From: Trichuris trichiura
Lineage: Eukaryota; Nematoda; Enoplea; Trichinellida; Trichuridae
Reading direction: 5' to 3'
NCBI GenBank assembly: GCA_037903355.1
Contig: JBAJFE010000027.1
Span: 372,001-436,000, forward strand
DNA: 64,000 bases
Positions within the stretch are counted from its first letter, which is position 1; each line of letters begins with the position of its first letter. A program made the position numbers and the translations under genes. Shown in pieces: positions 20,359-59,763 of the stretch. The notes under the pieces are model-generated. The model searched no databases, was not told the DNA's origin, and saw nothing but the letters and a program-made list of their open reading frames with translations.

Positions 20359-21414
20359 GGCACTCTCTCAGTTTTGACTATGAGTACCGCGTATTTCCCT
20401 TACAGAAGCATCTGGAACGTCAATACAGTATCGATGGTGTGCAAGCTACCATGCACAAGGGGAATGATACTTGTGGGCACACAAAATAAAACTGATTTTA
20501 TCTACCACATGACACCGGTTTTTTTATCTGCCCCACTCTATAGAAAAAGTGAGCCAGCTGCAAATTTACTGGAGCGACAGTTGGGCATATATTATTGCTG
20601 CGGTAATTTTTTCACTTCGAGTGACTGACATTTGCAGTTGATTTTCATTGAAATCCGTTATAAATGAAAAACGTACTTAAAATGTGCTAAGCATTTGTTT
20701 ACTTAGCTTCGACAGCCTTCTTTACTTTAACGTATCGAGAAACTGTTGAAATATATTTCGCAAAGGCAGCTGAAAAAAATAAGCATGAAATTTGGAACGA
20801 AATGTTTGCAGTCGGTTGCTCTGCTAAGTAGTTTTCACGAATGACATGAGCGCCTTATTGCATACTGTATGCGTATCTTCTATTTTGACATTTATTCTCG
20901 CTGTTTTGTTTTTGGCATGCAGTTGTATACAAATAGGCTTGGTTGTTAGCGATAGTGGTAACGTGTTCTGTAAGAATTTATTTTGATTTGAACTTTTCGA
21001 AATGTGTTGTCAAAAACGAAAGTACGTTTCGGTCGTTGTGTCGCGGGAGGCCGTTCATTGAGTGAGTTAAATAAGTGCGGACAATCTTGAATTGGTTGAA
21101 GGGTGGCTGAATTTGGAAACGTTTGTTCTTCTTTGCTGTTAGCTGAACCTGCGCCTGAAGTCTGCACAAAGTCTAAATTCACTAAGATTTATGCGCTTAT
21201 TTGAAGACCCTTAACGCTTCAGTTTTACGTCGCAAAATGGAAACTGTTGCCTGTTCTGTTTGTCATTGCACGAAGACTCGCCATTGTCTGCTCGGCGTAA
21301 AGATATTAAGAACTTGTAGGGCAAAACGGCTTTAAATATTTACGTCAATGTTTGAGTCGTTTTTTTGTAATCTGCCCATTTCAGTTTCTTGCCCTTTGAC
21401 GGTTGTCTTCAATC
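20359..21414. promoter_or_regulatory. Divergent NOL6/ATG9 upstream region
   Basis: 1056 bp between the two start codons, transcribed away from each other. It must hold both promoters and leaders. No TATA box, trans-splice acceptor or repeat could be assigned. A good minus-strand acceptor (TTTTTTTCAG, about 20763) may mark a NOL6 leader exon. Confidence 0.5.
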
Positions 21415-24400: not shown

Positions 24401-27400
24401 AGTTTTAGACGAGTCGTGAATCATTTAGATTCACGACTCGCGATCAATGTTTTTCAATGACTCTGCAATCGCGAGAAACGGACCCTAACCAGAAAAGCGG
24501 ACACTAACTAACAGATGGACTGCTTACCAATCAAGATTTCGATGAAACGAGTGGATAGATGTCTGAAGCAAGCGCATTTAAGATTGGCAAGTCGTAGCTT
24601 CTTTACTTGGCAAAAGCGCACAGAGAATATGATTGGCACTAGGATAAAGTCGAATGTTTGGACAGGTCAGGCTCTGATACTTCCAATTAACGCAGTCTCT
24701 CGCACGTTATCTCAAACGTCTCTTTGAATGAAGCTCATAGTACTGTTCGGCTATTTTTATAATGGTATTACGAAAATTCGACTCATGAAATTTATTTTGC
24801 AAAGCTTTCGAGAAGCATCCGTTCTCCGAATTTCCGCGATATCATTACGCATTTTCACATGCCTGTTAGAAAGAGCCTTGTTCTCAATGCAGTGTGCAGC
24901 TGTTTACCGAATGTTTAATGTGCATCCGCAGATCAGTGAATCATCGATAAGGAAGCATACGACGCCACTGGCTTGTCACCGTTTGGCAATACAGAATTGC
25001 TCTGTGCTGTCGGCTACGCGTACCTGATCGCAGCGAAGAGCAGTCCTTGATCTGCTTCTTTCTACGGAATATGTCCCGTTAAGGATACAATAAACTTTTA
25101 ATCTCCGAAGCTTTCGGGCCGCGCGTGACCCGTCTTCAGCGGTACTAAAAGTGATATAGTCTCAAGTGAGAGTCGACAGGTGAAAGCATTTTAACGGTTT
25201 AAGGCGAGTGTTTTAAAGTCCTGTTTTTAAGGTTTCTTTGTTTGTCAGCCAAATGCGTGTCATGTGGCGTATATGTCGAACCATCTTACGCTGTACATTG
25301 TTCCATTTTTTTCTTTTTCATGTTTAACTCCACTGTTCATTTCCTGTTCGTTATAAACGTTGCCATTTCTGTTCCATATGTTAATTCGTTTCATGTTTTT
25401 ACCATCTTGTTCCATGCAAATTTATCTATTTTTTATATTTCCATACATGATGGCTTTTCATAGTTGATCTTCTGATTCATGGGGTTGGCCTGCTTGATGT
25501 ATCTGTAAGTAAACTTCAAAGTGCCCTACGAACGAATGGATGAGCAAGTTGTTAGAGAAATTACAGAACAATTCTATACCGTTCGTTTCGGAACTGCTCT
25601 TGTTCCGTCGTCAGTAGTTTAAGTGAGAAGGTTCAGCAAACATTAAGATACATCAAACAGGCCAAACCCGTGAACCAGAAGATCAAATATGAAACAAACT
25701 AAGCCAGTTAAAAGGCACCCCGTTTTTCGAAACACATGATGGCCTACATCAATTCTATTGTTATGTATATGTTATTCAATTTTTTCAACTTGTTCACGCG
25801 CGGCCCGAAAGCTTCAGAGATTAATAGTTTATTGTATCCTTAACGGGACGTACTCCATAGAAAGAAACGGATTAATCATGGAAACCTACAGTCCCGTACC
25901 AAGAAGCTACATCATCAGAGCAGTCATTATCATAAAAAAGCTGTGGAAACCCATACTAACTAAATACAGTAGAACTTCCGGGTCTAGTATGTTGTCTCCC
26001 CACCGGAAGTTGAGGCGGCTACTTCAAAGCGTAATCTGCGAATCTATAGCGTAATAAATGGTTGTTATCGGCACAACGGGACGGACGTTATCGTCAGGTT
26101 TAGTGAAAGCATGGAATTTAGCAAGTGCGCATGCATTGAAGTTACGAGAAACACAATGGGGCCTGCAGGTGTTCAAGCTGAGACGTCGTGTAGGAATTGG
26201 TGAAAAACATCGCAGGTCAACTTTCCGAGCTGAGGCGTGCCTTGGTAGACAGGGTAAATCTCATTCTGCATTATGTCTGTCCGGGATCTAGTGACAACTT
26301 GCCATCGACAAGTGGAGGCACCGTAAGGAGGCACTGACGCCTTCTGCCTGATTACGTACATCCGAGTGAACCCGTCGGATGCGCCTCCAGCGAAATGGAC
26401 GCGTCGCCTTCGTCAGGGTGAGCGCCTGCGTTAGCAGTACGTATGCTTTTTCCCTTTTTGCGTTAGTCATTGCTCCCTTGTTCAGTGATCGCTAAATAAC
26501 GTTACTTTGCGCTATGCTTTTTGTGATTTGCGCCACGGTCAAAACTGCAAACCCAACAGCAGCAACGAACACGCGTCATGTCAAGGTTAGGCTTAGGCTT
26601 AGGCTTAGGCTTAAGCTTAGGCTTAGGTTTAGGCTTAGGCTGAGGCTTAGGCTTAGGTTTAAGCTTAGGCTTATGCTTAGGCTTAGGCTTAGGCTAGGGC
26701 AGGACAGGATGGCCGGCAGGGTTATAGCACGCACTTGGAAACAATTACCGGAACAGCGAACCGTTTCCAGCTGTGCAGCGTTCCTTCGCTGATACGCATC
26801 GCTCGCATGTGTACACAGTGAACAATAGCTTAGGTCACGCATTGTTGAGGCGACATAGTACTGATCACGTGACCGCCTTTGAAGTTGCCGTCTCAACTTC
26901 CGGTGGGGAGACAACATACAAGACCTGAACCTCCAAAGTTGACCACCTTCCTAAGTTGACCGAAGTTTGATCACTTGGTTGGTCCGCACGTTAATAAGCC
27001 CAAGGACAGCTTCTTTGGTTTCTTTTTGTACGGATTTTTCGTGTCCCGTTGAATAGACTTTTATTAATAAACTTTTATTAATAAACTCTCCGGAACTTTC
27101 GGGTCATTCGTGACCCGTCATCAGCGGTCATAAGTTGTAGCAGCGAATGCCATCTGTCGTTTCTGTGGATTTTTAAAGCGGGCATTTTTTTGGGCAAAAA
27201 ATGCCCGCTTTAAAAATCCACAGAAACGACAGATGGCATTCGCTGCCAAAAACCATTCCTACAACTTATGACCGCTGATGACGGGTCACGAATGACCCGA
27301 AAGTTCCGGAGAGTTTATTAATAAAAGTCTCTTCAACGGGACACGAAAAATCTGTACAAAAAGAAACCAAACAATGAAATTATTTGGTCCCGTACGAAGA

Positions 27401-30400
27401 CACTATATCTTCAAGGACAGCTTCTATACATTGACCACCTCCGTAATTGGGAAGTTGACCGCTTTAGCCGTGACCCGGTATATGGACGCAATGCTGATTT
27501 GCACTCTGTAAGTTGACCACTTCAGCTTGCTCAGTGTCAGTCGCTAGCAGCTGTTAACCGTCATTGCCTTAATGTGCTATTACTCAACTCAGCGAAGTTT
27601 TTCATTACGGTGCATTGGAGATTCCTGATAACGGAACAGATTCCGTCGCTTTGACGATGCTTTTCCCATGCTTGCTAGCGCAGCTTGCGCGTTTCCTCAA
27701 TTACATAACCTCTCACCTGCGCGTCAGCAGCATTCGCCCATTGAGCGAATGCTGCTGACAGAGGACAACCTCCGTAAGTGGGAAGTTGACCGCTTTAGCC
27801 GTGACGTGGTATATGGACGCAATGCTAGTTTGTTCACAGTAACTTGACCAGTTTGTTGAATGGACAACTTACGGTGGTTCAATTGCAATCTATTCAGCCG
27901 AGCCACTTATAGCCACAGCCAGGTATGTTGATCAGTTTTCTCCGGTCCCTTGGGTGGTCAACTGATGGAGGTTCTACTGTAAATAGAATTATGCTTAACG
28001 ATGAGTTCGATTCACGCGTGCAGAAACGCTAAGAACCGCTTCGACTTCTTACGCAAACAGCGAAGTGCGTAATATTAAAGTGCATGGGAGGCCGAGGGAA
28101 AAACCGTAGATACAAAGGTCTCATAGTACAGTGATACTCCCCTATCCGAGCACGCCGGGGTGAAGGATAGTCCATATTACGGACAAGTCCGGTTTATGGC
28201 GGAAGCTTACAGTAGGTCACAGAAAAGCAGGCAATGCAGGGGTCTCGTCTGAAATCAGCCCTCCGTCGGCAGTGGCGGCAACATCAAAGGAGGTCAAGTG
28301 GGGATTAGTAAGACTTAATCGGCTTAGCACACCGAGCAGCTAAGCACGCGCAAATGGTCTGGCACACTAACGCTGATGAATTTATGCAGTGTACGCATGA
28401 TTGCAGTAACATTTCCGAAGAAAAGTATGACAAATTTATCGTAAAGGTGGGTGAAAACGTCTCAGTAACGCGCGCAGTACACGCTAACGTACAGCAAGGG
28501 TACATACCGTCTAATGGTGCGCCTTCACCCACGAAAACGCTGAAGAAGCTGGGTACACTTCAGTCGGGCGTGTGCGGCACGGGCGGTGCGTTCACCGGGC
28601 TCTTGTTCGACCTGTGCATACAGACGCGCATAGAGAACAGAAACGTTAAAGAAGCATTGTACCATCCGCTTTGGCAAGGCCGCTAGCGCTGGCGTCGCGT
28701 CCGCTCGGGGCGGGTGCAACATGCGAATGTCGGCGAGGATGACCTCGAAAGCGTCGAAGGGTCCCAAACGTTTTTTCCACATGAACTCGCTCAGGTACGA
28801 CACGACGACGCTCCGATGCGTTCCACACCGCCGCTTGTTGCCGCGCTTCAACTGAGCCCACATGGACTCTACGGTCTGCGTGTTGGCGCCCGTGTCTCGG
28901 TCGACGAAGTTCGTTGAGTGATTCACTCGCGAATGATTGTACCCTTCGCGGTCGAGACGGCGGTAGGCACGCCACTCATCGGTCATCACTGCAGACTGCG
29001 GTCTCACATGGGACCGTACAACGGGTAGGAGGGTGTTCGCCGAACGGTCCTTCACGGGTTCGACGTGAACTTCGCCGTTTTCCCGACATACACCGCCGAA
29101 GAGCCACAGCGGCGAGTACATCTTCCCTCGATTGTGCTTTCTTCGGGTAAAGAGGGACTCGTCCAGTTCCACCGTCATACCCGCTCCTCCCAGTTGCACC
29201 GGTCTTTCGGCCAACGCGTCTGCATTAACTTGCCGCAGGTGGCCGTTCCACAGCACTCCAGTGCCGTGGCTGAATCCTAAAGCACACATACTGCCTACAC
29301 CAACAACAGAAGGCGTGCGAATCCGCACCCAGCTCGTGTAAGCAGAATTTAGTCGTGGTGTGCTCACGACTCCAGTTGAAAATGATCTCGACGGCCTTCT
29401 GCAGCTTTACCTTGTTCCGTGGAACTACAGAGGACGCACTGCAGTGCGTAGCGCTCGTAACGGCTTCAGCGCATAGTGCCCTTACCGTCGAACCACGTCC
29501 CTGTTCGTACGGCCACTTCCTTCCTGCAGGAACGTTTAAAACACCTCCAGGCCATGCCACCTCGCGTCAAACGCATCGCCTCTCCGCAAACGGGGCACAG
29601 CCTTTCGCTGTGCAGCAGCCCTTTTTCACGAAGGAAATTAGCCGCCGTTTCTTCATCCTGCACCGTCTGGTGCAGCCAGGCGATGTTTGTTCGGTTGCTT
29701 TTCCGGACAGGTTCACTTCGAATTGCGCACGGTGTGTTCATGCTTTACAATGAGGTTCGCACATTTTGCCACGGCACAGTGCCAACCGGAGCGATGACCT
29801 TCGATGTTTCCGACGAATAACTAACGGAACCCTGGGATACATCTCTGCAGTCACATTGTACTCCCTGTGCCAGCAATGCATGTGCACCGGTTTAATCCCT
29901 CACCTTCACTGTTTCGCAAGGGTCAGTAACCGAATCGGTGACACCTGCAACCATTACTCAATTGCGCAGCTACGCAATTCGTGCACAGGTAATTCGCGGG
30001 TCAATAACACCCTCTCTGCGTGTGCCGCTGCCGCTCCATTGTGTTACCCACTCTAGAAATGCACGCGCAGGTGTTTCATCCCTCACCAGCACTATTTCGC
30101 AAAGGTAAGCAGCTGCATAAGTGACATGGAAACGCAATTTGCAGGTCAGTGACCGGTCAAACTGCAGGTGGCACTAACCCCCCTTTGTCTCTTCGTTCAA
30201 CTTGCGCGGCACGTGTTCATCAACCCACAGTATACCGTCACACCCGTTGCGCGGCTTATCCGCATTATCGCAGCGTATTAACGTGTGAAGTTGCCGCTTC
30301 CGCCGACGGAGGGCTGATTTCGGGCTAGATCCCAATGCAGTTTTAGATGTAGGTTCCTGGCGTCCACAGCGCGATGTCAGTCTCTGCAAGCAGGGAATCA

Positions 30401-36400: not shown

Positions 36401-39400
36401 GTCGTTGCCTCCCTGAGCAGCAGCGTGATCGTCTGCCCGGGCGCAAAGGACTTTTTCTGCCTACAACGCTCTCTAACCGTGCACAATGCTAATGAGGCCT
36501 TGTCATTTTTCTGATTGTTGGTTATTGCTTCGTGCGCGTTGTCGAGCCTACTCGCCGTGCGCAAACATCAGTTTCCTTCCAGCATGGTAGATCTGAACTT
36601 TCGCGTCGTTTAACTGGTGTCGCACAGGAGAATGGCTGACAGAAGGTAAGTGAACAGAGTGGTTACCCTAGGGCTAAGAGGCAGTGTAGCGCTCTTACTC
36701 TTTATGAGAAAGTAGAAGTCCTTAATCTTTTGAAGAAGGATTGTCATTTGCCGAAGTGGGCCGCAGGATCGGGAAGAATGTATCCAGCATTCGTACGATA
36801 AAACGGAAGGAAGTTGAGATTCGAGGAAATGTGCATCCTGACCCTTCATTGGGGAAAAGAACTGCTGTAGTTCGCAACAAAGTCCTCGTGAAGGCCGAAA
36901 AACCGCTAAGCATTTGGATAGAGGACATGTCACGGAAGAATGTCCTCGTCGACGAGAAAGTTATTCTGGAGAAAGCGTTGAGCTTACATGAGCACTTCTC
37001 TGGCGTGAATACAGAGAACGAAAGAAAAAGGTTAATTGCTAGCAAAGGATGGCAAGCAAAATACATGAAGCGGTTCAGCCTGAAGAACTTAAAGATCACT
37101 TAGGAAATGGCATGGGCTGATTTCATAGCTGCCTCGACGTTTCCAAAGAAATTCAAGGGGACGAAATACGCAGCTAGAATGTAAACTATTTAGCCTTTTC
37201 ATATGGTAACCTATATAACGCCTAATTCAACTTAACGTGGTAAAATGCTCAAAATGTTGGACGAATTAACGGCGAATAACGAGGGCCGCCTGTATTTGGC
37301 TTTTCTCATAGGGTAGCCTGTAACGCGGGTCCAGGTTAACGCAATGAAATACAGTGGGCCCTCGTTATCCGCGGATTTGACTCAATGCGGTTTCTGCTTA
37401 GAAAACAGTGACTTAATTTTTAGCAGAGATTGACGAATCGCTGCTGAACATAATAGCAGCGCAGTGTCATTTTTCGTGTATGTTGTGGTAGGATTCAATC
37501 ATGCGACCTGAGAAAATGGTTTTTTTCTATTCTTATATCTTCTCAACCCTGCCCATAATACTAATACGTCGTGCTGCTATGATGAGCTATCACTGACCTG
37601 TTGCTTTTAGTTTCTCATTTCCCAAAATTGAGCTTAGGTACCTCATACTATTGTAAGTCAGCCTCTGAAGTCACAATGGCTTATGAATAATAGTAAAATT
37701 CCTTGTCCATAGAAGCCGTTAAGTTTGAATATTGATTGTCTCAGAAAGGCTGCATACGTTTTCGGAAGAAATATTGTAAGATCGCTTAATGCAGCAAAAT
37801 TTTAAATTTACTTGAGCTGTCGCCTGTTTGATGGATTAGCAGGGCCGTTAACAACAGCAAAGGTTGAAAAGGGTAAGAGCACAGCGGAGTTTACTGAATT
37901 TAAAATGTCGTTTGGTGTGCAATAATTTTAAGTAGAAAAAATGCAATTTACACCATAGTTTAACTCAGTGTTTCCCAACCTTTTTGGAGCCAGGGCCCCC
38001 TTTCGCGACCTTCAACTTGCCGGGGCACCCCGTCATTCTCCCCAACGTAATTTTCCTGCTTCTGTTATCCTCAAGTGCGCCTACTATGGTTACGTTGTTG
38101 TGAATTTGTGCAAGTAGTTCAACACCTGAAACAGTCTGCAGAATGTAGAATTGACTTCGCTGCCTACCGTGTATTCCAAGGGAATACCAGTTAAGCCGGA
38201 CCGTCATTAAAAACCTTGTTAACCTGAACACTGAATTTCTTTTCTACACTAGGGCGAAATGGCTAGTAAGGAAGCCGGTTGCCATGTACGACGAAAGCAC
38301 CGTAACGATATTCGAAGCCGTGAACATCTTTAATTCTTTAGTTGGCACTGAAGACATTCCGTATTGCTGGACTTAAGCCGGCTAATTGCAGATCAGAGAG
38401 CCTTCAGAGTACAAGCGCTGCACTGGTTTTCCTCTTCCTCAATTTTTTGGGCTGTTAGCAATGGTAGCGCAATATGTAAGTCAGGCTACGATGCTGTTCT
38501 CAGGGCCGCGCAACACTGAATCTAAATTCAATATTTTCTCGGAGCAAGACGACAGTCGCTTGATCTTACCTCAGTGCGACGACTGGGTATGGTGCAGTGC
38601 TACTAATTTATCCACGTCCGGCTCGATAGTCGTCAGGAGTAATCTCAGGTCACCTCGCCTCACTATCCTGAACGGCAGGATCGCTCTCGTCCTGCGGCAC
38701 CGACTACCAGGGACCCCCTAAATATCTAATCCTTCCCGGGGCCCCTTTCAAGTTTTCCAAGGCTCCCAAGGGGCCCCTGGGACCCCCGTTGAGAATCACT
38801 GGTTTAACCACTTCTATTAGTGAAAAAAACAGCAATTGATGTCAGAACTTTCACACCATCTAAGATAGTCGTTGTTCAATACTGACAAATGCTAAACGAC
38901 ATGGGCGTTAATCGTTGAAGATTGAGAAGGCTGAGAGAAGAATCTTATGCTTAGGTGACAATAGAAGATGATTGTCTCAAAGCTTTCGGAACGCTTCTGC
39001 TTCTGTTGCCAGCAGAAGTTAAACACGCGCAACATCTGGTTGCCTGCAGCTATCTTTATGAGCAAGATACGGATGAAGGGCTAAAGGGTTTTACTGATCA
39101 GAACAGCTCATGCTTCATCTGATTTTGATGCCTCTGCATTTTTGTCTGAATGTTCTCTCATCCTCCCACTGAAGATCATATATCACGGGAGCATGTTACC
39201 CAATAAAAAACTAGAGGCGCTTTGGTATGCCATAATCCTTCTATTAACTGGGACAGAGACTTCAAAGTTAATTATGAAAATGAAAAGGGTTTTGAAAACG
39301 GGGTTTCTTGGTACGGGAACAAATGTTTTCATAATGAAGAAGTTTATTACGGATAATTCCCGTTTGTTCTGTATATGTAGAATAAATCCGGAGCTTTCAG

Positions 39401-42400
39401 GTCATTCGAGACCCGTCATCAGCGGTCTTAGGTTGTTGATATGATTCATGGCAGCGAGTGCCCTAATGTTTCTGAGGATTTTAAAGCGTGCATTTTTAAA
39501 GTTTTCTGTTCGTTGGTTCTGGCATCTGAGTCTGTCAGCGTACTTCTATTTCTTGTTCCGTATGTCTTGTGGATTGTGTCTTGGCTGGGTAGTTTCGAAC
39601 ATTTTTTTGTTGTTGGTTCACTGTTTTTTCATTTTGCATTCATTTTTCTTTCTTTCTTTCTTCTTTTTTCTTTTTCTTTCCATATATATCGCAGTCCTAT
39701 CCATTTCTATTTGTTCTAATTAGTTGATTTTTCTTTTTTCTTTCCGGGCTATTGTATTTCATCTGGTGAGAGAGCAACAATTATACCGCGTCACAATATT
39801 TGTCCAAATCCCACTTATGTCCACTCCTTGATCGCGGTTGTAGGTCGTATTGTGTCTAATGTATAGTGCTTCCTTAATTCTTCTTAACCGTAAATTGTTT
39901 TCGTAACATAGAACTCTTGGGTGGAGTGGTTGGGTACATTGCGTCGCATGCTCCACTACAGCAGAGGCTTTTTTGGCTTTTTCCATTGTAAGTTTTGGGT
40001 CCACGATTGGTCTGCCTCGCTGTGTGGTTAGATTGGTGCCATTGTCAAGTATTGGCACCAAGCCAGTGCCAAACAAAAAGACAGGACTAATATACGCGGT
40101 TGAATGTTCTTGCTCAGGGATTTACATTGGTGAAACGGGAAACACCCTAGAGCACAGATTCAATGAACACATGAAAAAAGTCACAAGTTACAATAACGCG
40201 AAAACCATACTTGACAATGGCACCAATCTAACCACACAGCGAGGCAGACCAATCGTGGACCCAAAACTTACAATGGAAAAAGCCAAACAAGCCTCTGCTG
40301 TAGTGGAACACGCGACGCAAAGTAGCCAACCACTCCATCCAAAAGTTCTATGTTACGAAAACAATTTACGGATAAGAAGGATTAAGGAAGCACTATACAT
40401 TAGACACAATACGACCTACAATCGCGATCAAGGAGTGGACATAAGTGGGATTTGGACAAATATTGTGACGCGGTATAATTGTTGCTCACTCACCAGATGA
40501 AGTACAATAGCCCTGAAAGAAAAAAGAAAAAACAACTAATTAGAACAAATAGAAATGGATAGGACTGCGATATATATGGAAAGAAAAAGAAAAAAGAAGA
40601 AAGAAAGAAAGAAAAATGAATGCAAAATGAAAATACAGTGAACCAACAACAAAAAAATGTTCGAAACTACCCAGCCAAGACACAATCTACAAGACATACG
40701 GAACAAGAAATAGAAGTACGCTGACAGACTCAGATGCCAGAACCAACGAACAGAAAACTTTAAAAATGCACGCTTTAAAATCCTCAGAAACATTAGGGCA
40801 CTCGCTGCCATGAATCATATCAACAACCTAAGACCGCTGATGGCGGGTCTCGAATGACCTGAAAGCTCCGGATTTATTCTACATATACAGAACAAACGGG
40901 AATTATCCGTAATAAACTTCTTCATTATGAAAATGAAAAGGGTTGTGCAACTAGATGCCTTCGGTTTGTTTGAGCAAAATGACAGACCACACATCACAAT
41001 TGTAACGTACTGTTGGGGAATGCAAGCTGGCACGTTAATATGAGCGTATCAAATACGCGTGTCAGGATGACTCATGTTTGGCGGATTGCCAACTGTGTGT
41101 GACACGCCGTTCGCTGCCTAGCTGGTCGCGCTCGCTTTCGCTTTGCTGTCGTTCGTTGTGGTCGGTTGTGTTTTCTTTCGTTCGCTATTCAGTGCGCTTG
41201 GTAAAAGAATGTTAATGTTGTGGTTTTCCTGTTGCTACAGTTCTCAATTCGGCTCTCAATACCACAACACCTACCAGGCCTAAGAAAGGCGCAAAAATAA
41301 GAACTCTGTCTTAGTTCTTCATTCTGTTCGCGATTATCAACGTGCCTGCACGGATTATTTGTTCGAACGTCATTGTAACATTCGCTCCTCTCTGTGTTTA
41401 ATTAAGAGACTGCGTAAGAGGTAGCCGTTTGTTGAACAAGTGTCTTAACTTTCGCCCTCGAAAGCAAACAGGTGGACCTTGATAGTCTTAGAGCATATCT
41501 GGTACCTTCGTGAGCCATAACAGATCAAAGGCAAAATGTCATCTTTGACTGTGTTATAAAAGTTTGACAACTGGTCAAAAAATTTACCTGTGCAGCTTCT
41601 GATTCATTAGAACAATTCTGGCTTTAGCGACCTAGTTCATAGTGAACAAAAGGCGCCTTATTAAGGTTCTGTACGTCGAACGGCGTTCTGCGACAAGTTG
41701 TCTTTAGCCAAAGGTCGAATGACCATTGGCAAAATCTGCAGAGCCTTTACGCCTAACAGTACTACGAAAGTTCCCGTCACTTGCGTTCTTCCTCAAGTCT
41801 CAGTCATCAATGAACAGTGAATACTAAATTCCCGGATCTACTCAGGTCTGTGTCCATTAGTCTGTTTTGAGGAATACTAAAACCACGATGCCACTGTATG
41901 GTAAACCAGCATCAATTGATGAATAGAATGTGCTTGCAATGCCTGCTACGTAACAGACATAGGCAATAAGATGTTACCACGTCCAAGAGGACATGTCAAC
42001 GAATGCCCCGTCGCGAGAATGGTAAACAAAGATTCAGCAAGGGTTAGTGATGAAGCTGAGAAAGACAGTAACAGATCTGAGAAGACAACGGACGACAATT
42101 TCATCGAAGGGTTAACGTAAGAAGAGCATTCTTCTCAGCGCTCACTTGACCTACGATGAAATATCTCTCAGTGCCACCGTAGTTTCGCATGCAGTCGTAA
42201 CGAATGTGTTGACCTAAGTGTACTGTGAAGCGCTCTGGTTCGTTACTAATAGAGCAGCTGCGACGCATTAGCTCGTCAACTCATTGAGCAGCCTTTCTCT
42301 GAAGACAGAATGTCTTTGATTGAGTGAAAAGCATTTATGTTAGACCAGTGATTCTCACGGTGGAGCATGTACCCCATAGAACTTTGTGCAGCACCTACAT

Positions 42401-51400: not shown

Positions 51401-54400
51401 GTGCGCATTGAGGTACGCGCTCTACGGTTACGGTGGCGTTGATCAAATTCTCTGTGGCCTTTCGAGGGTTTACCGTGGGTTGACGCCCGGGACCGGTGGT
51501 CGGCTCCCCGATGAGTGTTCATACGGCGTTCTTGTACCTCAACCCATTCCTCATGTGTTGCCCGTTTTTCCTACGTAGGCGGCGTTGCAACCACATTTTG
51601 TTTCGGTACGACACCTGGTCTGCTGTCAAAAGGAACTTTGATCCTGTCATTTCTCACAATCGAACGAATATTAGAAGAATGTTTAAACCGAAAATTGAAA
51701 TTTAGGGAATGTCCTAACCTCTTAATCATTTCACTTAAACCACTATATTAAGGAAACATCTTGGCACTCCATGTCCTTCCCACTCAAATTGAATAGCCTT
51801 TTCTCTAATAAAATAATGTTTTCATAATGAAAAAACTTTATTACGGATCGGTTCCCGTTTATGTATATAAAAGAGATTCCGGAGCTTTCGGGTCATTCGA
51901 GACCCGTCATCAGCGGTCTAAAGTTGTAAATATGATTTTTGGCAGCGAATGCCATCTATCGTTTCCGAGAATCCTCAGAAACAATAGATGGCATTCGCTG
52001 CCAAAAGAATTCGCTGTTTCCCGGCAATAGAGAATACTCGGAAACGACAGATGGCATTCGCTACCAAAAATCATATTTACAACTTTAGACCGCTGATGAT
52101 GGGTCTCGAATGACCCGAAAGCTCCGGAATCTCTTTTATATACATAAACGGGAACCGATCCGTAATAAAGTTTTTTCATTATGAAAATATATGGTCCCGT
52201 ACCAAGACACCACGTTTTCAAAATAAAATAATGTTGACCATTGAAAAACAAAGCAACCTAAAATTAGCTTCTCTGGATGTCTCAGTCGTGAAACGAGGAA
52301 ATAAATTACAAGCAACCGTTTATAGAAAACCGACGCACTCAGACGGGCGCTTACGTTTTTCTTCTCATCACCCCAGTCAGTTAGAAGGGCTATAGTAAAA
52401 GGAATGGACGACTGAGCTCTGATAGTATGGTAATCTCACACATTTGAATGCTGAATTAAACTACAGTAAAACCCTCGAAGTTGACCACCCTTATATGTCG
52501 ACCGCTTTCTTAAGTTGACCGAATTTTGGTCAATTGATTTGTCCGCACGTTAATAAGCGCAACGACAGCTTGTATACATTGACCACCTCCGTAAGTGGGA
52601 AGTTGACTGCTTTAGCCGTGACCTGGTATATGGACGCAATGCCAATTTGCTCTCTGTAAGCTGACCTCCTCAGTTTGTTCTGTGTCAGTCGCTAGCAGCT
52701 GTTAATCGCCATTGCCTCAATGTGCTATTACTCAACGTAGCGAAGCTTTTCATTACCGTGCATGGGAAATTTCTGATAACAGAACCGATTCCGTCGCTTT
52801 GACGATGCTTTTTTCATGCTTGCCAGTGCAGCTTGCGCGTTTCCTCAATTACTAACCTCCACCTACGCGTGGGCTGCATTCGCCCGTTGAGCGAAATATG
52901 ACGAGTCGAGCCTACTAGTATTTGTTTGCGTCGAACTCAGCTCTATTCATTCGCTTTGCTATAGCCGCGCGGCAGGGGGCCTTAACGTGTCTTCGCGAGT
53001 AAAGATGGTCAGGCACTCGCAGTAGTAGCTACCAAGCTGGTTACAGTTTGCACTATAGCCGAACAGAAAGAATCGAGGGAGCTGGCACAGAAAAATGAGA
53101 TGAAAAATGCCCAGAGATGCTGGGCGGCGTAGTTAGCGTGGAGGCCGCTTTTGCTGCTTATGTTTGTAGTAAGAACAAGCACCAGACTAGAATTGACACC
53201 TTTTCCGGCAAGCATTGTGGCCTCTAAAAAGAGTTTGCATGAATTTACAATGTTATTTTTATGCAGCTCACCGTTTAATAGACTTCCGATTGATGCTGCG
53301 CAATAGAATAAAACGCATACAGATGCTAATCTATTCAGCCGAGCCACTTATACCCACTGTTCCTGTATGTCGACCACCTCTCTATGTTGACCAGTTTTCC
53401 CCAGTCTGTTGGGCGGTCAAATTACGGGGGTTTTACTGTATATCTTAAATACATTACGCAGTAATGGGTAGTCCTGTAATTTCGTCATTTCCATCATCAG
53501 ACAGCATGAATCAAATAAATCACTACTATAGCAGCTTAAGTTGTTCTGGTGCTTCCCTGGTATAGCCGCTTAAGCGAAAAGATTAAGAGGCTAGGGCATT
53601 CCTTAAATTTGAACGTTCGATTTAGCAGTTCTTCTAATCTTCGTTCGATTGTGAGAAATTACAGGACCAGGGTTTCTTTTGACAGCGGACCAGGTATCTT
53701 TGACGAAACAAAATGCGGTTGCAACGCCGCCTACATAGGAAAAACGGGCAACACATGAGGAATGGGTTGATGTACAAGAACGTCGAACGAACACTCATCG
53801 GGGGGCCTACCACCGGTCCCGGGCGTCAACCCACAGTAGACTCTCGAATGGCCACAGAGAACGTGATCAAAGCCACCGTAACTGTAGAGCACATATCTCA
53901 GTGCGCACTTGACCCTCAAGAAAGTCTTTTTTACTTTAGGCGTGTAAAGGAGGAGCTTTACCTTCAAAAGCAATTCTACCATCGGTCGCGACAATGTTGC
54001 GGCGGTTAGCGAGGTATTGAGTGCGCTAATTAAAAAACCCCAATCCTTCGCCTTACTGAGCTAGTCCGCACTCATTGTTCCCGTGTGCCTATCTAACCAC
54101 CTTACTGAACAAACTCCTTACACCGCTGGCGACTGAACAAGCGCAGTTCCAAAACGTATGGTATCGACTGTTCTGTCCTAGTTCTCTAACAAGTTGCTGC
54201 CGTACACGAGGTGTGTTGTCATCCATTCGCTGGTAGGCACTTCGAAGTTTGCTTACAGGTACGCCAAACAGGCCAAAGCCGTGAAGCCAAGATCATCTGT
54301 GAAACTACTGAAGCTTGTTACAAGACACCCCGTCTTCCGTAAGGGCAGTATGAATAGTAGAACTGTCGATCTTGCTGCGTGTTCCTCTAGTTTGGAAAAT

Positions 54401-57400: not shown

Positions 57401-59763
57401 TCCGCCTAATCTTTTCTCCAAAACCTTTCATTACTGATCGTGATTGATGGAATGAGAAGTGGAAAGCTACGCAGCTGTTCTCTGTATATTGTTGTTTCTT
57501 TTTTTATCGTGAACAGCAGCGGAACAGGGATAACTTTAGCGAAAATGAATTTAAAAAATTGGTGTTAGGTTTAGCTGTGATCCTTCTAAACCACTTCAGC
57601 CGTTTTCGTGATAGTCGGACAACTTCCTGAATTCCATTGTCAACCTCAGCATCGGTAAAAGGATTACCGGCAACTCTGAAATTGATAACTTATCTTCTTC
57701 CCCTTCGTTGTGTTCGTTGAACTGCTAAAATTATTCATTCATATTTAGACATTTGAGGTTGCATGTTATGATGGCTTTGGATATCTGAAGAATGTCTTTA
57801 TTACGGATTGTCTCCCGTTGTGAAAATAACAAAGAGATCTTAACACTTCTTCCGGAGCTTTCGGGTTCTTTCGCGACCCGTCTTCAGCGGTGAAATTATC
57901 AATTATCTAAATGAAGACGGGTCGCGAAAGAACCCGAAAGCTCCGGAAGAAGTGTTAAGATCTCTTTGTTATTTTCACAACGGGAGACAATCCGTAATAA
58001 AGACATTCTTCTATATGAAAACTCACACTCCCGTACAAAAACATCATGTTTTCAAGGCTTTGGATATCTTTATTTAAAGCAGGGGTGGGGAACATCCGGC
58101 CCGCGAGACCATTTTCCGCCCACGCACTGGGGCAACCGCACATGGATGCGAGATTCAGTGAAATGTGATTATACAAGGTTATTTTTCATAAAGCAATAAA
58201 CGTATTTTATGTGAATCTTAGTAAGAACCTAAATCTTGCGTAGGAAGCAGGGAGCGTCAGGCTGGCTCGGAAGACAGCGTTGCTGACAGCTCTCTGTCGA
58301 CAAACCGACATTGTTAGTCCTCGGTGACAAGCAGTAGGCGCCACTACACTGAGTGCACGCGTAAGTAGCGTGGACTATTGCTTTGTTAGAGATAACGACT
58401 GTCCAGCATGCTAGAGCTCTTCTGCTTGTTTGCTCTCAGTAGTCATTGGCATCGTTCTCGCCTTCTCTCGCTATCGTTCCCGTCGGTTTGCACCAACCGC
58501 CTGTCCTTTACGTTTTCGAAGTACAAAAAAGTTATTTCGTTCTCTGTAGTTGCGATTATTTTCTTTACAACTGGGTTGCAGAATTGTCTCAAAATTCTGC
58601 CTTTTATCTCGGAGTTTCCTCACCAAGGAAAAACAGTTCCAAGCATCCCATTAGGGGTGACTTAATAAACATACGTGCAAATAAAGCAGGCTGTTTTTCA
58701 TTTAAGTATGCTATACGGCCCGCGAACGGTCTTATAAACGTCTAAACGTCCCGCGGCACCAAAGAGATTCCCCACGCCTGATTTAAAGCTTGATTTTGAC
58801 CTTATTTCGATTTGAATTGACATGTTCGTCATATTTTGCTTAATTCTTGTTTAGGATGAGAACGCTGTCTTTTGTCCTGAAATGATGATGAACACAGTAC
58901 TCGCATATGTTCATTATCTTCCAAGTTCTTGGCGTATTCAGGCGCATAGCGAATGGGTGCGACGGGAATTTTCTCGTTTCTACCAGTATCGGTTTACATT
59001 CATTCTGGAAGAGCTGTTAAGTCCGATTGTGTGTCCTTTCGTTTTGTTGCTCTGGTTGCGTCGATCAGCAGGACAGTTTGTCGACTTTTTCCGAAATTTC
59101 ACTGTCGAAGTGTCTGGCCTGGGCGATGTGTGCTCCTTAGCTCAAGTCGATCTTCGCAATTACGGTGATCCGACATATCAAATGGCCAATAAACCTTTGT
59201 CCAAGGAAGCCAGCATGGCGAAAGCTCGTCATGGCAAAGTGGAAATGTCACTATTGCATTTCATCTCCACCAATCCAAGATGGGAACCGCCCGCTGACGC
59301 AGTTCAGTATCTCAATTCTTTCCGTGCCCAAGCGGACAAGGACGCTCGTTTGTTAGAAGCGAATGCAGATCTGTTTGAAAACCCGCTGACTCAGAGCCTT
59401 TACACTTATTTAACACCGTGTGCAGTTCCTTGCTTCCGGCAGCCTCGTGGCCGCGGTGTATCGAAAAGCGTTATGCCACTTGATTCAAGTCAGTTGAGTA
59501 GCCTTAGCGCTTCCAGTGTTTTCGCCTCCGCTTTTCATCAACGGAGTCATACTCCATCGGTTGTCTGTCTCAGAGCACCATTTGCCTCTACTGGTGGATC
59601 GGCTGGACAGTCGCACTTATTGAATCTTCTTTCGCCTGTGAATTTGGACATACTGTATCTTCACGAGTTGCACAAGCGTCGTCAGCAAGTTGGCACTTAC
59701 GGTTCCATACCCTCCTCTTCCGCAGATGAATTACCATTTGACAGAAGAACAAGTGCAATGTGA
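21415..59763 (+). CDS. atg-9: Autophagy-related protein 9 (lipid scramblase), split by a 36-kb intron
   Basis: Exon 1 is 21415-22701 (429 aa), ending at CAG|GTAAGC. Exon 2 is 58855-59763 (302 aa plus stop), after TTCTTGTTTAG. Both ends are phase 0 and join inside a conserved block (exon 1 ...IVAACNMFIQ, exon 2 DENAVFCPEMMMNTVLAYVH...), giving 731 aa (C. elegans ATG-9 about 811, human ATG9A 839). Several membrane segments are visible (LLADLLELFQFIFVVAFAII; GLVNLLLAPLVFIWQILYCL; FILEELLSPIVCPFVLLLWL). Conserved ATG9 motifs include NFTVEVSGLGDVCSLAQ and FISTNPRWEPP. ATG9 is the trimeric membrane protein of Golgi-derived vesicles that seeds and scrambles autophagosome membranes. The odd feature is the 36,153-bp repeat-filled intron, the only coding intron. 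Confidence 0.93.
22838..23006. mobile_element. Small Tigger-type MITE (GTTGACC family)
   Basis: CAGTAGAACCTCCGAAGTTG...GGAGGTTCTACTG, 169 bp, with long terminal inverted repeats. Same family as 46513-46682, 46753-46938 and the ends of the 47198-50410 Tigger element. Confidence 0.75.
23312..24345 (-). pseudogene. Tigger/pogo transposase relic
   Basis: Minus-strand reading starts MTRKRKTNTAGTDDKPKRSG and passes a CENP-B-type HTH part. It then reaches DDE_1 motifs (KQVFNCDETALF near 23730; LPVFWPHKRNAWV near 23550; ALKVLLVMDNA near 23420). Many stops and shifts. A TIR-like end (TCCGTATCCGCGGG) is near 23320. Confidence 0.75.
24346..25035. other. Unassigned intronic stretch
   Basis: Nothing recognised apart from a short inverted repeat at 24411-24440 (CGTGAATC / GATTCACG). 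Confidence 0.5.
25105..25143 (-). ncRNA. Hammerhead-ribozyme-like motif (copy 3)
   Basis: Minus strand: ACCGCTGAAGACGGGTC, loop, GGCCCGAAAGCTTCGG. Box sequences intact; stem II has one G-U pair. Confidence 0.7.
25578..25617 (-). ncRNA. Hammerhead-like motif, PLE family 2
   Basis: Minus strand: CTACTGACGAC, stem GGAAC/GTTCC, then GAAACGAACGG. Box order matches the other copies but stem II sequence differs, so the structure is kept with changed bases. Decayed relatives at 51150-51190 (-) and 54120-54165 (+). Confidence 0.55.
25793..25820 (+). ncRNA. Half hammerhead-like motif (copy 4)
   Basis: Only the 3' half (GGCCCGAAAGCTTCAGAG) remains; the CUGANGA box is missing. Confidence 0.5.
25986..26925. 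mobile_element. TIR element carrying a telomere-like array
   Basis: TIRs of about 45 bp: GTATGTTGTCTCCCCACCGG (25988 onward) and its inverse (about 26875-26920). Interior has the TTAGGC array at 26584-26697. No transposase. Confidence 0.65.
26584..26697 (+). repeat. Interstitial telomeric repeat (TTAGGC)n
   Basis: About 19 units of TTAGGC with a few variants (TTAAGC, TTTAGGC, TGAGGC). TTAGGC is the nematode telomere unit. Confidence 0.93.
27090..27128 (-). ncRNA. Hammerhead-ribozyme-like motif (copy 5, FB1 left arm)
   Basis: Minus strand: GACCGCTGATGACGGGTC, loop, GACCCGAAAGTTCCGG. Boxes and stem intact. Confidence 0.75.
27271..27310 (+). ncRNA. Hammerhead-ribozyme-like motif (copy 6, FB1 right arm)
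   Basis: Plus strand: GACCGCTGATGACGGGTC, loop ACGAAT, GACCCGAAAGTTCCGG. Confidence 0.75.
28251..30321 (-). mobile_element. Merlin-like (ISXO2/IS1595-type) DNA transposon
   Basis: Terminal inverted repeats GAAATCAGCCCTCCGTCGGC (28251) and its inverse ending at 30321 enclose a minus-strand transposase. Length 2.07 kb. No matching direct duplication was seen at the ends. The next 360 bp to the hAT element at 30685 show nothing recognisable. Confidence 0.7.
28525..29741 (-). pseudogene. ISXO2-like transposase, frameshifted
   Basis: The N-terminal zinc-ribbon part (29741-29466: CPVCGEAMRL...WRCFKRSCRKE) changes frame near 29470. It continues as TTTKFCLHELG, and changes again near 29290 into a long DDE part (29280-28525). 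Catalytic-type motifs GMTVELDESLFTRRKHNRG, MTDEWRAYRRL, and NHSTNFVDRDTGANTQTVE are visible. The domain is the DDE_Tnp_IS1595 type used by Merlin transposons. Short introns instead of frameshifts cannot be excluded. Confidence 0.85.
30685..31146. mobile_element. hAT-type MITE
   Basis: CAGTGTTTCTCAAAG...GTTAGAATCACTG; flanks TCCTAAAC (30677-30684) and TCTTGAAC, a decayed 8-bp duplication. Closely related to the copy at 48674-49143. Confidence 0.75.
31200..32225 (+). pseudogene. Mariner transposase pseudogene
   Basis: HTH part (FVDEWIRRFKEGRERIKDD, ITIRRIARMAG) stops at 31571. Catalytic part follows in pieces (DRIITEDET near 31640, HPESKIQSKQW, and APYSPDLALSDLFLFPKLK near 32010-32060). Motifs fit mariner DD34D transposases. 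Several stops and shifts; TIRs not clearly found. Confidence 0.8.
32912..33583. mobile_element. hAT-type MITE, family c copy 1
   Basis: CAGGGGTGGGGAACCTTTTT...GTTCCCCACCCCTG, 672 bp, exact 8-bp duplication CCCTAGAG (32904-32911, 33584-33591). Confidence 0.9.
33954..35169 (+). mobile_element. hAT deletion derivative
   Basis: CAGTGTTTCTCACGG...TTGAGAAACACTG, 1216 bp, exact duplication GTATAGAA (33946-33953, 35170-35177). Near 34900-34998 it keeps a piece of the hAT dimerisation region (IVRRGDLCLRVTSIEPNIDR). Confidence 0.85.
35206..36282 (+). mobile_element. Tigger-like element A2, C-terminal part, truncated
   Basis: Left TIR (GAGCCCTCGTTATCCGCGG) followed by the acidic C-terminal region of the transposase (35329-35640: LGAIDEEVMDIVNIARELGG, FTNEELEKL). 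No right TIR; element A3 follows at once. Confidence 0.65.
36283..37292 (+). mobile_element. Tigger-like element A3, N-terminal part
   Basis: CAAGGGGCCCTCGTTATCCG...CGAATAACGAGGGCCGCCTG with TA on both sides, 1010 bp. Encodes the DNA-binding half of the transposase (36741-37103: FAEVGRRIGKNVSSIRTIKR, PLSIWIEDMSRKNVLVDEK), no catalytic domain. Another A-type TIR lies at about 37352. Confidence 0.75.
37293..37965. other. AT-rich intronic stretch
   Basis: Only a partial Tigger TIR near 37352 is recognised. Confidence 0.5.
37966..38801 (-). mobile_element. hAT deletion derivative
   Basis: CAGTGTTTCCCAACC...GTTGAGAATCACTG; flanks GTTTAACT / GTTTAACC (one difference). Minus strand keeps a hAT C-terminal piece (IVRRGDLRLLLTTIEPDVDK, about 38680-38570). 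The 490 bp that follow hold nothing recognised. Confidence 0.8.
39387..39426 (-). ncRNA. Hammerhead-ribozyme-like motif (copy 7)
   Basis: Minus strand: GACCGCTGATGACGGGTC, loop, GACCTGAAAGCTCCGG; one mismatch-prone base in stem II. Confidence 0.7.
39759..40076 (-). pseudogene. PLE endonuclease C-terminal part (left arm)
   Basis: Encodes the same region as the right arm (TMEKAKKASAVVEHATQC, NNLRLRRIKEALYIRHNTTY) but begins downstream of the GIY-YIG core, so it lacks the catalytic motif. Confidence 0.8.
40040..40500 (+). pseudogene. PLE GIY-YIG endonuclease (right arm), RT missing
   Basis: Open frame with CSCSGIYIGETGNTLEHRFN, the GIY-YIG core with its Arg, then the conserved tail (VVEHATQSSQPLHPKVLCYE; IRHNTTYNRDQG). 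In Penelope-like elements this domain follows the reverse transcriptase and nicks the target DNA. Here the RT is gone because the two arms meet just upstream. Confidence 0.88.
40833..40872 (+). ncRNA. Hammerhead-ribozyme-like motif (copy 8)
   Basis: GACCGCTGATGGCGGGTC, loop, GACCTGAAAGCTCCGG. The box reads CTGATGG instead of CTGATGA. Confidence 0.65.
40945..42343. other. Unassigned intronic stretch
   Basis: No gene recognised. 41232-41280 (CTGTTGCTACAGTTCTCAAT) is repeated at 47158-47195, so some of it is an unnamed repeat. Confidence 0.5.
42435..43476 (-). mobile_element. hAT derivative with transposase C-terminus
   Basis: CATAGGTTCTCAAAC...GTTTGAGAACCTATG-type ends, exact duplication TGTTAGAC (42427-42434, 43477-43484). 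The minus-strand frame at 43233-42949 keeps the hAT dimerisation domain (FPSSYLAECRFSAVTELLSS, RSRLDIVNRGDLRLMMTK), close in style to ZBED5/SCAND3-type transposases. A partial hAT end (CAGTGATTCTCACGG) precedes it at about 42347. Confidence 0.88.
43485..44265. other. Unassigned intronic stretch
   Basis: No coding or repeat assignment; a Tigger A-type right end follows at about 44270-44345. Confidence 0.5.
44369..46259 (+). mobile_element. Tigger-like element A4 with hAT insertion
   Basis: CAGTCGGCACTTGTTATCCG...GGATAACGACGGCCAACTG with TA flanks. Carries the C-terminal acidic transposase part (44516-44780: LGAIDEEVMGIVNIAKELGG) continued after the hAT insertion (45503-45769: SLKPLPDLFDKAKKRRIQLP). 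DNA-binding and DDE regions deleted. Confidence 0.8.
44791..45494. mobile_element. hAT-type MITE, family c copy 2
   Basis: 704 bp, same ends as the 32912 copy, exact duplication TCCTAAAG (44783-44790, 45495-45502). It splits the Tigger transposase remnant. Confidence 0.9.
46301..46500. mobile_element. 200-bp MITE with ~60-bp TIRs
   Basis: TTACAGCCTATAAGAACAGC at the left and its inverse (TTACGGCCTATAAGAACACG read from the right). Central 80 bp unique. Preceded by an AT microsatellite (46259-46300). Confidence 0.75.
46513..46682. mobile_element. GTTGACC-family MITE
   Basis: CAGTAGAACCTCCGAAGTTG...GGAGGTTCTACTG after TA. Confidence 0.75.
46753..46938. mobile_element. GTTGACC-family MITE
   Basis: TA-flanked (TATA|CAGTAGAACTTCCG...GGTTCTACTG|TA). 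Inserted into a fragment of the same family that starts near 46694. Confidence 0.75.
47450..49437 (-). pseudogene. Tigger/pogo transposase, interrupted by a hAT element
   Basis: Minus strand: the N-terminal HTH part is at about 49437-49150 (KTAKRFHVSKTTVSNIQRRK). The hAT insertion at 48674-49143 follows, then the second HTH part (SGWLEKFKLRHKISQKTLCS, about 48560-48500). DDE_1 pieces and the C-terminus (WISSSWNKEAIRKCFKKAGF near 47860) complete the order. The order matches Tigger (CENP-B-like) transposases. Multiple stops. Confidence 0.8.
48674..49143. mobile_element. hAT-type MITE inside Tigger transposase
   Basis: CAGCGTTTCTCAAGG...GTGAGAATCACTG, exact duplication GCTTAAAC (48666-48673, 49144-49151). 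Confidence 0.9.
50450..51000 (-). pseudogene. PLE endonuclease-region fragment
   Basis: Minus strand: VIGYKVYFTSAAPLRSTVRN, then a damaged GIY-YIG region (CSASHRGNRQHFTHGHEKH), then the tail (MEHASHCDGQLYP, RDAFYTNNNTAMNRDEGTE). The same order as in the intact PLE at 62.9-64 kb. Confidence 0.75.
51001..51760 (-). mobile_element. PLE family-2 fragment, left arm
   Basis: Minus-strand copy of the sequence that reappears inverted at 53549-54310: ORF-start piece (51001-51160), decayed hammerhead-like motif (51150-51190) and GIY-YIG region (51320-51700). Confidence 0.65.
51878..51918 (-). ncRNA. Hammerhead-ribozyme-like motif (copy 9, FB2 left)
   Basis: Minus strand: GACCGCTGATGACGGGTC, loop TCGAAT, GACCCGAAAGCTCCGG; boxes and stem intact. 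Confidence 0.75.
52089..52128 (+). ncRNA. Hammerhead-ribozyme-like motif (copy 10, FB2 right)
   Basis: ACCGCTGATGATGGGTC, loop, GACCCGAAAGCTCCGG. The base after the CUGAUGA box is T here and C in the other arm, so it is not conserved as a pair. Confidence 0.75.
52464..53438. mobile_element. Tigger deletion derivative (GTTGACC family)
   Basis: CAGTAAAACCCTCGAAGTTG...ACGGGGGTTTTACTG with TA flanks, 975 bp. Shares interior with 26924-27979. Confidence 0.75.
53549..54310 (+). pseudogene. PLE family-2 fragment, right arm (GIY-YIG)
   Basis: CGCNAAYIGKTGNT then a stop, then the tail (VTVEHISQCALDPQESLFYF; VKEELYLQKQFYHRS), then the ORF-start type sequence (FAYRYAKQAKAVK). Inverted relative to 51001-51760, with FB2 and a Tigger derivative between the arms. 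Confidence 0.7.
54480..55270 (-). pseudogene. PLE reverse transcriptase remnant
   Basis: Minus strand keeps the RT C-terminal region in broken frames (AIIKSGEGEAFLSHLNHLFP, HISFTIEKKENSRL). These match the order after the YVDD motif in the RT at 56523-57197. Confidence 0.65.
55455..55494 (-). ncRNA. Hammerhead-ribozyme-like motif (copy 11)
   Basis: Minus strand: CAGCTGAAGACGGGTC, loop TCGTTT, GACCCGAAAGCTCCGG. Lies downstream of the PLE ORF, in its terminal repeat. Confidence 0.72.
55738..57197 (-). pseudogene. Penelope-like RT plus GIY-YIG ORF, decayed
   Basis: RT part 57197-56523: VSYNVKDLIPSIPI, SSGVPMGSPLYPVMAEIF and catalytic YVDDIFVIIKDGKEE. A TAG interrupts at about 56520. The frame resumes (56489-56250: NYIRKIFYKNNYPKSFINQV) and stops again near 56250. 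The GIY-YIG core is damaged by a small deletion near 56105, and the tail is intact (56127-55738: LEHRFNEHMKGLTTYKNAKN; IKHNETYNRDQGAE). In PLEs the RT and endonuclease form one protein that copies RNA onto a nicked target. This copy is inactive. Confidence 0.92.
57198..57770 (-). pseudogene. Further PLE fragments
   Basis: Degenerate pieces of the linker and endonuclease tail (IQASAIAEHVSYCNSQLLL, just upstream of 57197) and, near 57650-57560, an N-terminal-like piece. They belong to a separate, older copy joined to the RT above. Confidence 0.5.
57851..57891 (-). ncRNA. Hammerhead-ribozyme-like motif (copy 12, FB3 left)
   Basis: Minus strand: ACCGCTGAAGACGGGTC, extended stem II with GCGAAAGA loop region, AACCCGAAAGCTCCGG. 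Confidence 0.72.
57911..57947 (+). ncRNA. Partial hammerhead-like motif (copy 13, FB3 right)
   Basis: ATGAAGACGGGTCGCG...AACCCGAAAGCTCCGG; the first base of the CUGANGA box and the upstream stem I strand are lost. Confidence 0.6.
58080..58780. mobile_element. hAT-type MITE, family c copy 3 (inverted)
   Basis: 701 bp, opposite orientation to the 32912 and 44791 copies, exact duplication ATTTAAAG (58072-58079, 58781-58788). Lies 66 bp from the ATG9 exon 2 acceptor. Confidence 0.9.

Follow-up and report, generated by a model that had tools for sequence, protein, structure and literature searches.

Compact one-tailed fold-backs related to Penelope-like elements in the Trichuris trichiura genome: inherited units or palindromes formed anew?

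Introduction

Among eukaryotic retroelements, Penelope-like elements (PLEs) are the third class. It is established that they can have inverted terminal repeats, a tail on one side and target-site duplications (TSDs) (PMC3846280), and in-vitro work from 2024 leaves the later steps of their insertion open (PMC11167929). A stretch of 64,000 nucleotides from Trichuris trichiura (assembly GCA_037903355.1, contig JBAJFE010000027.1, positions 372,001 to 436,000; the window) contains three compact near-palindromes, FB1, FB2 and FB3, which raise the question of how such small inverted structures arise. They might be copies of a defined non-autonomous element, as an earlier note on this DNA had proposed, or debris of longer PLEs, or they might be formed anew at each insertion.

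Results

Three compact fold-backs in the window

By window sequence comparison FB1, FB2 and FB3 are each bounded by their own exact 14-bp TSD. The inverted stretches within them extend over 56–161 nt and are 95–100% complementary, so that a chance origin is excluded. All parts of the three units are given on the plus strand except the left arms, which lie on the minus strand. In FB1 the left TSD CAAGGACAGCTTCT (27001..27014) is repeated exactly over 14 nt by the right TSD (27412..27425). Between them are a left arm that corresponds to the reverse complement of the Penelope mRNA leader and has no tail (27015..27190; inverted repeats 95–97% complementary), a right arm with the leader in sense orientation (27196..27373), which has a hammerhead-like core CTGATGA..GAAA at 27275–27309, and a one-sided tail (27374..27411), the identity of which as Penelope ORF start is taken from the coding copy L097 (see below). 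The two FB1 arms are unequal, the left one being about 13 nt short close to the centre (by eye). FB2 lies between exact 14-nt copies of AATAAAATAATGTT (51807..51820 and 52222..52235) and consists of a left arm (51821..51976; inverted repeat of 161 nt, 96%), a centre of 53 nt that separates the arms and in which another copy of the GATGGCATTCGCTGCCAAAA leader motif is partly present (51977..52029), a right arm (52030..52180) with a hammerhead-like core at 52093–52127, and a one-sided tail (ATGAAAATATATGGTCCCGTACC..TTTTCA, 52181..52221). FB3 lies between exact 14-nt copies of GGCTTTGGATATCT (57773..57786 and 58056..58069). Its left arm (57787..57886) has 100 nt that are 100% complementary to the right arm (57912..58011), the central junction of 25 nt (57887..57911) is made up of a left-arm extension and filler and differs in other family members, and the one-sided tail reads ATGAAAACTCACACTCCCGTACAAAAACATCATGTTTTCAA (58015..58055). 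A GGGGAACATCCGGCCCGCGAGACC stretch directly 3' of FB3 (58080–58140) looks by eye like another dispersed repeat.

The coordinates and exact 14-bp target duplications given for FB1–FB3 in the earlier note are correct in the window sequence. Its statement that the three are independent insertions agrees with each having its own TSD, no coding body is present in FB1, FB2 or FB3, as it had said, and its proposal that Penelope machinery makes the units is supported. The description of the units as only two terminal repeats has to be amended, as the right end of each carries an extra tail of about 38–41 nt without a counterpart at the left end. Paired hammerhead-like motifs, claimed for all three, are seen in FB1 and FB2, where each arm has the core; the FB3 right arm starts inside it.

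A larger fold-back at 39278–40944

The three units are real. A fourth, larger fold-back at about 39278–40944 had been overlooked. Its arms are 727 nt long and 98% complementary, its tail is of the same type, and a direct repeat is present at its ends. The tail reads MKTFVPVPRNPVF (39293..39332, minus strand) and the tail-bearing arm (39326..40052, minus strand) comprises the end of a GIY-YIG ORF, UTR and leader. A stretch of 154 nt lies between the arms (40053..40206, plus strand); in another copy in the genome, 137 nt of it are found as an extension of the tail-less arm. The tail-less arm itself (40207..40933, plus strand) is entered by the GIY-YIG ORF 39907–40500, which spans the centre of the fold-back.

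The tail and the start of the Penelope ORF

In the coding copy L097 (contig C7) an open frame reads ..NMKTHAPIQKHHVFKTIKGEY.. and goes on past the tail sequence. The tail sequence opens a presumed PLE frame, MKTHAPIQKHHVFKTIKGEY..., about 100 nt 3' of the hammerhead-like motif; the start codon is a putative one, as the frame is also open upstream. The tails of FB2, FB3, the 39278–40944 unit and other copies encode MK...PV.....[VI]F, as does that of FB1 by eye. By these readings the first 13 codons of the Penelope ORF make up the tail of about 40 nt, and the fold-back arms are hence the 5' leader of the PLE mRNA. A tail on one of the two inverted repeats, located at the ORF start, is thus found as in PLEs, and PLE protein domains are found in the same window. 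A reverse transcriptase (PF00078) is matched at 56523–57326 (E 1.2e-7), and GIY-YIG (PF01541) at 39907–40500 (2.6e-5) and 63253–63756 (6.4e-6); PF01541 was not found in the window ORF 55738–56301. A search of the genome for the PLE reverse transcriptase region gave 121 scored matches, and part of L007 scored 19.9 bits against PF00078, which is under the cutoff. The leader motif is also present in other PLE fragments of the window, at 8139–8266, 19276–19351, 25102–25149, 55430–57326 and 62932–63756, two of the five being close to reverse transcriptase or GIY-YIG sequence.

The hammerhead-like motif

Across loci, 37 variants of the motif CCG-CTGANGA-C-GGGTC..GACCC-GAAAGCTC-CGG were found; the invariance of its core is partly by construction, because the search pattern demanded the core. 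The core is followed by an additional C, which pairs with the G of GAAA. Both stem I and stem II fold in FB1 and in FB2, stem I does not in L094, and the FB3 right arm has ATGAAGA in place of CTGAAGA, with C3 missing. No Rfam hammerhead was found in the window, at the gathering threshold or at E<=10, nor in FB2 alone. In sequence the motif resembles the helix-III-less hammerhead type, which is known from PLEs (PMC7761336). The two motifs of a unit lie on opposite strands of one long hairpin, and co-folding may block either of them. A classical type III hammerhead with cleavage at the modal inner end was considered and rejected, as no upstream pairing strand is seen (by eye). Rfam matches of the units to microRNAs and sRNAs were set aside as the usual result for long hairpins.

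Target duplications and tails across the genome

A search of the genome with FB3 DNA gave 592 candidates, of which the best 40 were scored, and 34 full units were fetched. In 33 of these 34 first-fetched FB3-family units the TSD is 12 bp or longer, allowing for one mismatch. The TSD of L058 is 11 bp with one mismatch only, and L063 has a TSD of 16 nt in one of two readings and none in the other. Exact TSDs were also found in a second set of FB3-family units (12–16 bp, 8/8) and in a third (13–16 bp, 7/8); L116 of the third set sits in an AAT repeat, where a TSD is not discernible.

A pattern for a single arm segment, blind to the tail, was found at 145 places in the genome. Among the 100 arms listed, 82 form 41 head-to-head pairs of one subfamily and no pair within 2 kb has any other orientation; the remaining 18 are without a listed partner, and some of their partners may sit among the 45 further arms. 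The inner distance is 146–173 in 25 of the 41 pairs. Tails were likewise listed for 100 of 148 places, and among these 24 of the 41 pairs have a tail on one side (on the left in 13 and on the right in 11), and no pair has two. Reading both outer ends in the fetched DNA gave exactly one tail in 41/41 pairs. L071 and L072 are one insertion, hence the count is 40/40 distinct insertions, and if tails were placed independently at both ends the probability of exactly one in 40/40 would be at most 0.5^40. L071 (at the end of C39) and L072 (C1) have matching flanks and represent either an assembly overlap or a duplicated haplotype.

The same architecture is found in FB1- and FB2-type families. Among 24 targets compared, a tail at both outer ends was present in none; L034 and L039 extend past their loci, and L012, L037 and L094 are tail-less by pattern; in L094 a shortened tail is visible despite the pattern miss. 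Arm lengths range from about 45–50 nt (L110, by eye) to about 610 nt (L026) and, for the unit at 39278–40944, 727 nt, and fold-back sizes form a continuum with arms of about 45–730 nt. A small unit is not always made of leader only, because the one-tailed, short-armed pair L114 (C48:268530–268960) encloses a piece of reverse transcriptase coding sequence (by eye). The long asymmetric unit L108 has at its centre a stretch of about 22 nt, present twice in tandem and in neither arm (by eye).

Variable centres

An element that moves as a unit would leave the same junction in many copies at different sites. Instead, the 32 readable FB3-family units (of 33) have 30 different centres, and 38 units of an enlarged, overlapping set have 36; in this set L086 and L092 were without anchors and 10 further units were not comparable by anchors. 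One of the two shared centres is that of L071/L072, i.e., one insertion present on two contigs. The other belongs to L083 and L088, which have an identical centre, different flanks and different TSDs, and share a right-arm substitution that is absent from all others of the 32 readable right arms. By sequence this pair looks as if a two-armed unit had truly been re-mobilised, and it supports the earlier note's model best; rare copying of whole units thus seems to take place. A common centre, including an 8-nt filler, was also found in L112 (C2:643780–644190) and L115 (C5:3064550–3064955); it is reversed relative to the tail, and the two units are at different sites and have different TSDs.

The variable centres speak against the defined non-autonomous element of the earlier note, as FB3-family fold-backs are mostly not inherited as units. 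The note had also named variable internal junctions as a sign of debris; such junctions are what is seen, but the TSDs are intact and the units are not debris. Its suggestion of an element class of their own is borne out in part: the pair L083/L088 looks unit-copied, but the sizes form a continuum. The view that fits best is that each fold-back is a complete primary insertion with a palindrome formed anew.

Where the arms end and how alike they are

End points were measured against one long copy. In 36 units the outer end of the tail-bearing arm lies 0–11 nt, and that of the other arm 32–48 nt, from the end of the tail. With L072 (duplicate), L093 and L094 (long) omitted from the counts, the inner end lies 14–20 nt 5' of CTGAAGA in 21/33 tail arms and 16/33 other arms, and in both arms of 14/33 units. 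In the FB2-type units L100 and L101 the inner stop is at a distance of about 20 nt 5' of the hammerhead-like motif (by eye). The FB2-type insertion L098, which has one arm and is bounded by a direct repeat, stops at a similar distance of about 20 nt (by eye). Arm stops 14–20 nt upstream of the motif are as expected for run-off at the RNA 5' end. Such an end may well be the cause of the clustered stops; a strong enzyme stop would look identical.

Among 33 units the longer arm is the tail-bearing one in 16 and the other one in 9, while 8 have equal arms. A gap of at least 5 nt in favour of the tail arm is present in 8 units, with L071 and its duplicate taken as one, and in favour of the other arm in 4; L083 and L088, which share a centre, are both among the 8. 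The centres of 16 units were compared, 7 being palindromic through the centre and 9 having a spacer; among the latter, L002 and L102 were ambiguous, L012 gave no result and L037 was left out as no tail was found. The tail-less arm is longer in the 39278–40944 unit, L035 and L038, and the tail-bearing arm in L016 and L028, with the assignments for L038 and L028 resting on 74% and 80% matches, respectively. Fillers of up to 12 nt are present at the centres.

Arms within a unit differ less than arms of different units. In the FB3 family the within-unit difference has a median of 0.005 and a mean of 0.013, compared to a mean of 0.033 for left and right arms between units (permutation p 1e-4, n=20 units; L054, L086, L092 and L072 left out), and in a second subfamily the values are 0.028 within and 0.037 between (p 0.010, n=9). 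A unit's own partner arm is uniquely nearest in 3/20 (tied in 10/20) and in the second subfamily in 2/9, because the arms are short and alike. The picture is clearer in longer units: in the 39278–40944 unit the arms are 97.7% identical, compared to 88.9% for the best other fetched copy. Both arms of a unit thus derive from the same or nearly the same RNA. L035 arms have 30 differences, of which 16 have both alleles present in other copies. This allele pattern gives a hint of two RNA template molecules, a weak one because the 39278–40944 unit likewise has both alleles elsewhere for 7/17 arm differences, when compared with more distant copies.

Discussion

Proposed priming on both target strands

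The reading we prefer, with a probability of about two in three, is that both target strands prime reverse transcription of the PLE leader RNA, and that there are two start sites, each used by one strand. The target would be cut in a staggered manner, about 14 bp apart, and both strands would prime on PLE RNA. One strand would start at the end of the tail of about 40 nt, within the first ORF codons (site 1), and the other 32–48 nt upstream, close to the start codon (site 2). Both cDNAs would be extended toward the RNA 5' end and joined there, and the product would be a head-to-head palindrome with a tail on a single side. Run-off at the normal mRNA 5' end, about 16–20 nt upstream of the motif, would give the compact body-less units, and longer or read-through RNAs would give longer palindromes, such as that at 39278–40944. 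Because initiation takes place at the ORF start, a normal mRNA would offer just its short 5' leader as template, and a body-less fold-back would therefore require no special element. What the sequence itself shows are the TSDs, the single tail, the match of the tail to the ORF start, the clustered inner ends, the variable centres and the likeness of arms within a unit; from there we infer priming on both strands, stops caused by an RNA 5' end and not by a block to the enzyme, and a dimeric protein giving each strand one site.

Some observations do not sit easily with two primings. The centres of L026, L093 and L094 are symmetric to within about 12 nt, away from the usual 5' end; two independent cDNAs would need a common RNA 5' end for such symmetry, whereas self-priming would give it directly. 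The longer arms on the tail-less side could be the result of later deletions at palindrome centres. L083 and L088 appear to have been copied as a unit, and the reversed centre of L112/L115 is not accounted for by priming on two strands. Also, the Anolis PLE shows the same use of start sites on top and bottom strands in the in-vitro account (PMC11167929).

Alternative routes to a fold-back

In self-priming only one target strand is primed, after which the cDNA or an antisense RNA folds back, copies itself and stops about 40 nt short, so that a head-to-head palindrome with one tail results. This was proposed in 2013 for the palindromic junctions of Penelopes of the rotifer Adineta vaga, possibly on antisense RNA (PMC3846280), and would account for the one-sided tail, the alike arms and the near-symmetric centres of L026, L093 and L094, for which the simplest explanations are this one or run-off of two cDNAs on a single RNA. 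A copied arm cannot, however, outrun its template, so that only one kind of longer arm is expected; barring later deletions, the presence of both kinds is at odds with this, as are the fillers of up to 12 nt at the centres. The 16/30 two-allele differences of L035 hint at two templates, though weakly in view of the 7/17 of the 39278–40944 unit, and in the in-vitro work both boundaries of the tail are starts, not stops (PMC11167929). The data thus favour two primings, and self-priming as the general route is unlikely.

More improbable still is a defined non-autonomous element, i.e., a two-armed unit that is transcribed and re-inserted whole by PLE proteins in trans. The common centre and unique substitution of L083/L088 at different flanks and TSDs would be its product; L112/L115 also have a common centre, though reversed relative to the tail, and a modal size class is present. 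Nevertheless nearly all centres are distinct in both the initial and the enlarged set, arms are closer within a unit than between units, and sizes grade into long palindromes; given the variable centres, unit propagation was rejected as main route. We consider it hardly credible that the fold-backs are debris, formed by internal deletions of longer PLEs bearing inverted terminal repeats. In favour of it, there are longer palindromic relatives that have the same ends, centres are variable, and one pair of 41, L114, encloses a piece of reverse transcriptase (by eye). Deletions would, however, scatter the inner ends, which cluster 14–20 nt 5' of the motif in both arms; the end of a single-armed insertion falls at the equivalent position, and the arms are unusually alike. 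Debris is discarded on account of the clustered ends together with the TSDs.

Relation to known systems

In twin-primed inversions of L1 priming by the second target strand takes place within the RNA, and the insertion ends up with a TSD and one segment inverted. The parts of the RNA found in an L1 inversion do not overlap, whereas the Trichuris fold-backs copy the same leader twice. Foldback-type DNA transposons have symmetric inverted ends; here one end is tailed and the other lies 32–48 nt further in. Retrozymes repeat their hammerheads in the same direction, and in contrast all 41 neighbouring pairs in the survey are head-to-head. Animal retrozymes are described as small non-coding hammerhead units that are thought to use PLE machinery and are tied to circular RNAs (PMC7761336); no circle is needed for the Trichuris fold-backs.

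Closer relatives are the rotifer Penelopes. Pen2a_Av and others of Adineta vaga are described with inverted pLTRs, palindromic junctions, a TSD and a one-sided tail of 31 bp at the ORF start (PMC3846280), and the Trichuris units share the head-to-head repeats, palindromic junctions, TSD and single tail at the ORF start. In the rotifer account the repeats flank an ORF or a captured gene, and TSDs are described as 8–10 bp (PMC3846280). In Trichuris, compared with that description, there are dozens of body-less copies with TSDs of about 14 bp, a modal inner end and variable centres. In vitro, the PAc protein of an Anolis PLE cleaves and extends both target strands, and reverse transcription starts from two adjacent internal sites by the ORF start, the tail being the interval between them (PMC11167929). 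Both strands, two start sites, the tail interval and an upstream motif of hammerhead or hammerhead-like type would be common to PAc and the Trichuris units. The PAc account is one of in-vitro products in which head-to-head insertions are not reported and no strand preference per site is described (PMC11167929); each Trichuris insertion, in comparison, uses both sites, one per side. The Trichuris units would be the expected product of an Anolis-type reaction if each strand takes one site. Body-less PLE palindromes as a class were not found in open-access titles and abstracts, which is weak evidence of novelty. The fold-backs are a real and abundant PLE product, new in form, and not a new element class.

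It is tempting to go further and propose that PLE integration is obligately two-start and two-strand, with one protomer of a dimer per site and strand. One-tailed palindromes would then be the normal product, and leader mRNA would give rise to promoter-proximal fold-backs, a large class that may occasionally be re-mobilised as units. This generalisation is tentative, its chances being slightly short of even. With dozens of one-tailed, TSD-bounded palindromes the end points record the start and the stop of each cDNA, and two-strand priming and self-priming can be directly distinguished in the Trichuris genome. The divergence between arms provides an internal clock for each insertion, as in LTRs.

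Other repeats and genes

Contigs C61, C9, C28 and C60 (L005–L020) hold PLE arrays in which neighbours are often about 7.3–7.9 kb apart. Their repeats contain an inverted part of the reverse transcriptase together with a sense GIY-YIG end, arm and tail, and several are near contig ends. The arrays are possibly subtelomeric or satellite, having arisen from PLE insertion. Ribosomal RNA was rejected as source of the 7.35-kb arrays, since 6 loci of about 3.2 kb each gave no Rfam match and PLE pieces are inside. In the window, a fragment of ATG9 that is 100% identical to a Trichuris trichiura protein is encoded at 21400–22737. By eye, the ORFs at 877–5038 have the look of a Copia-type LTR retrotransposon, and ORFs 28525–29406 and 61139–61702 that of IS1595/Merlin-type and mariner-type transposases, respectively.
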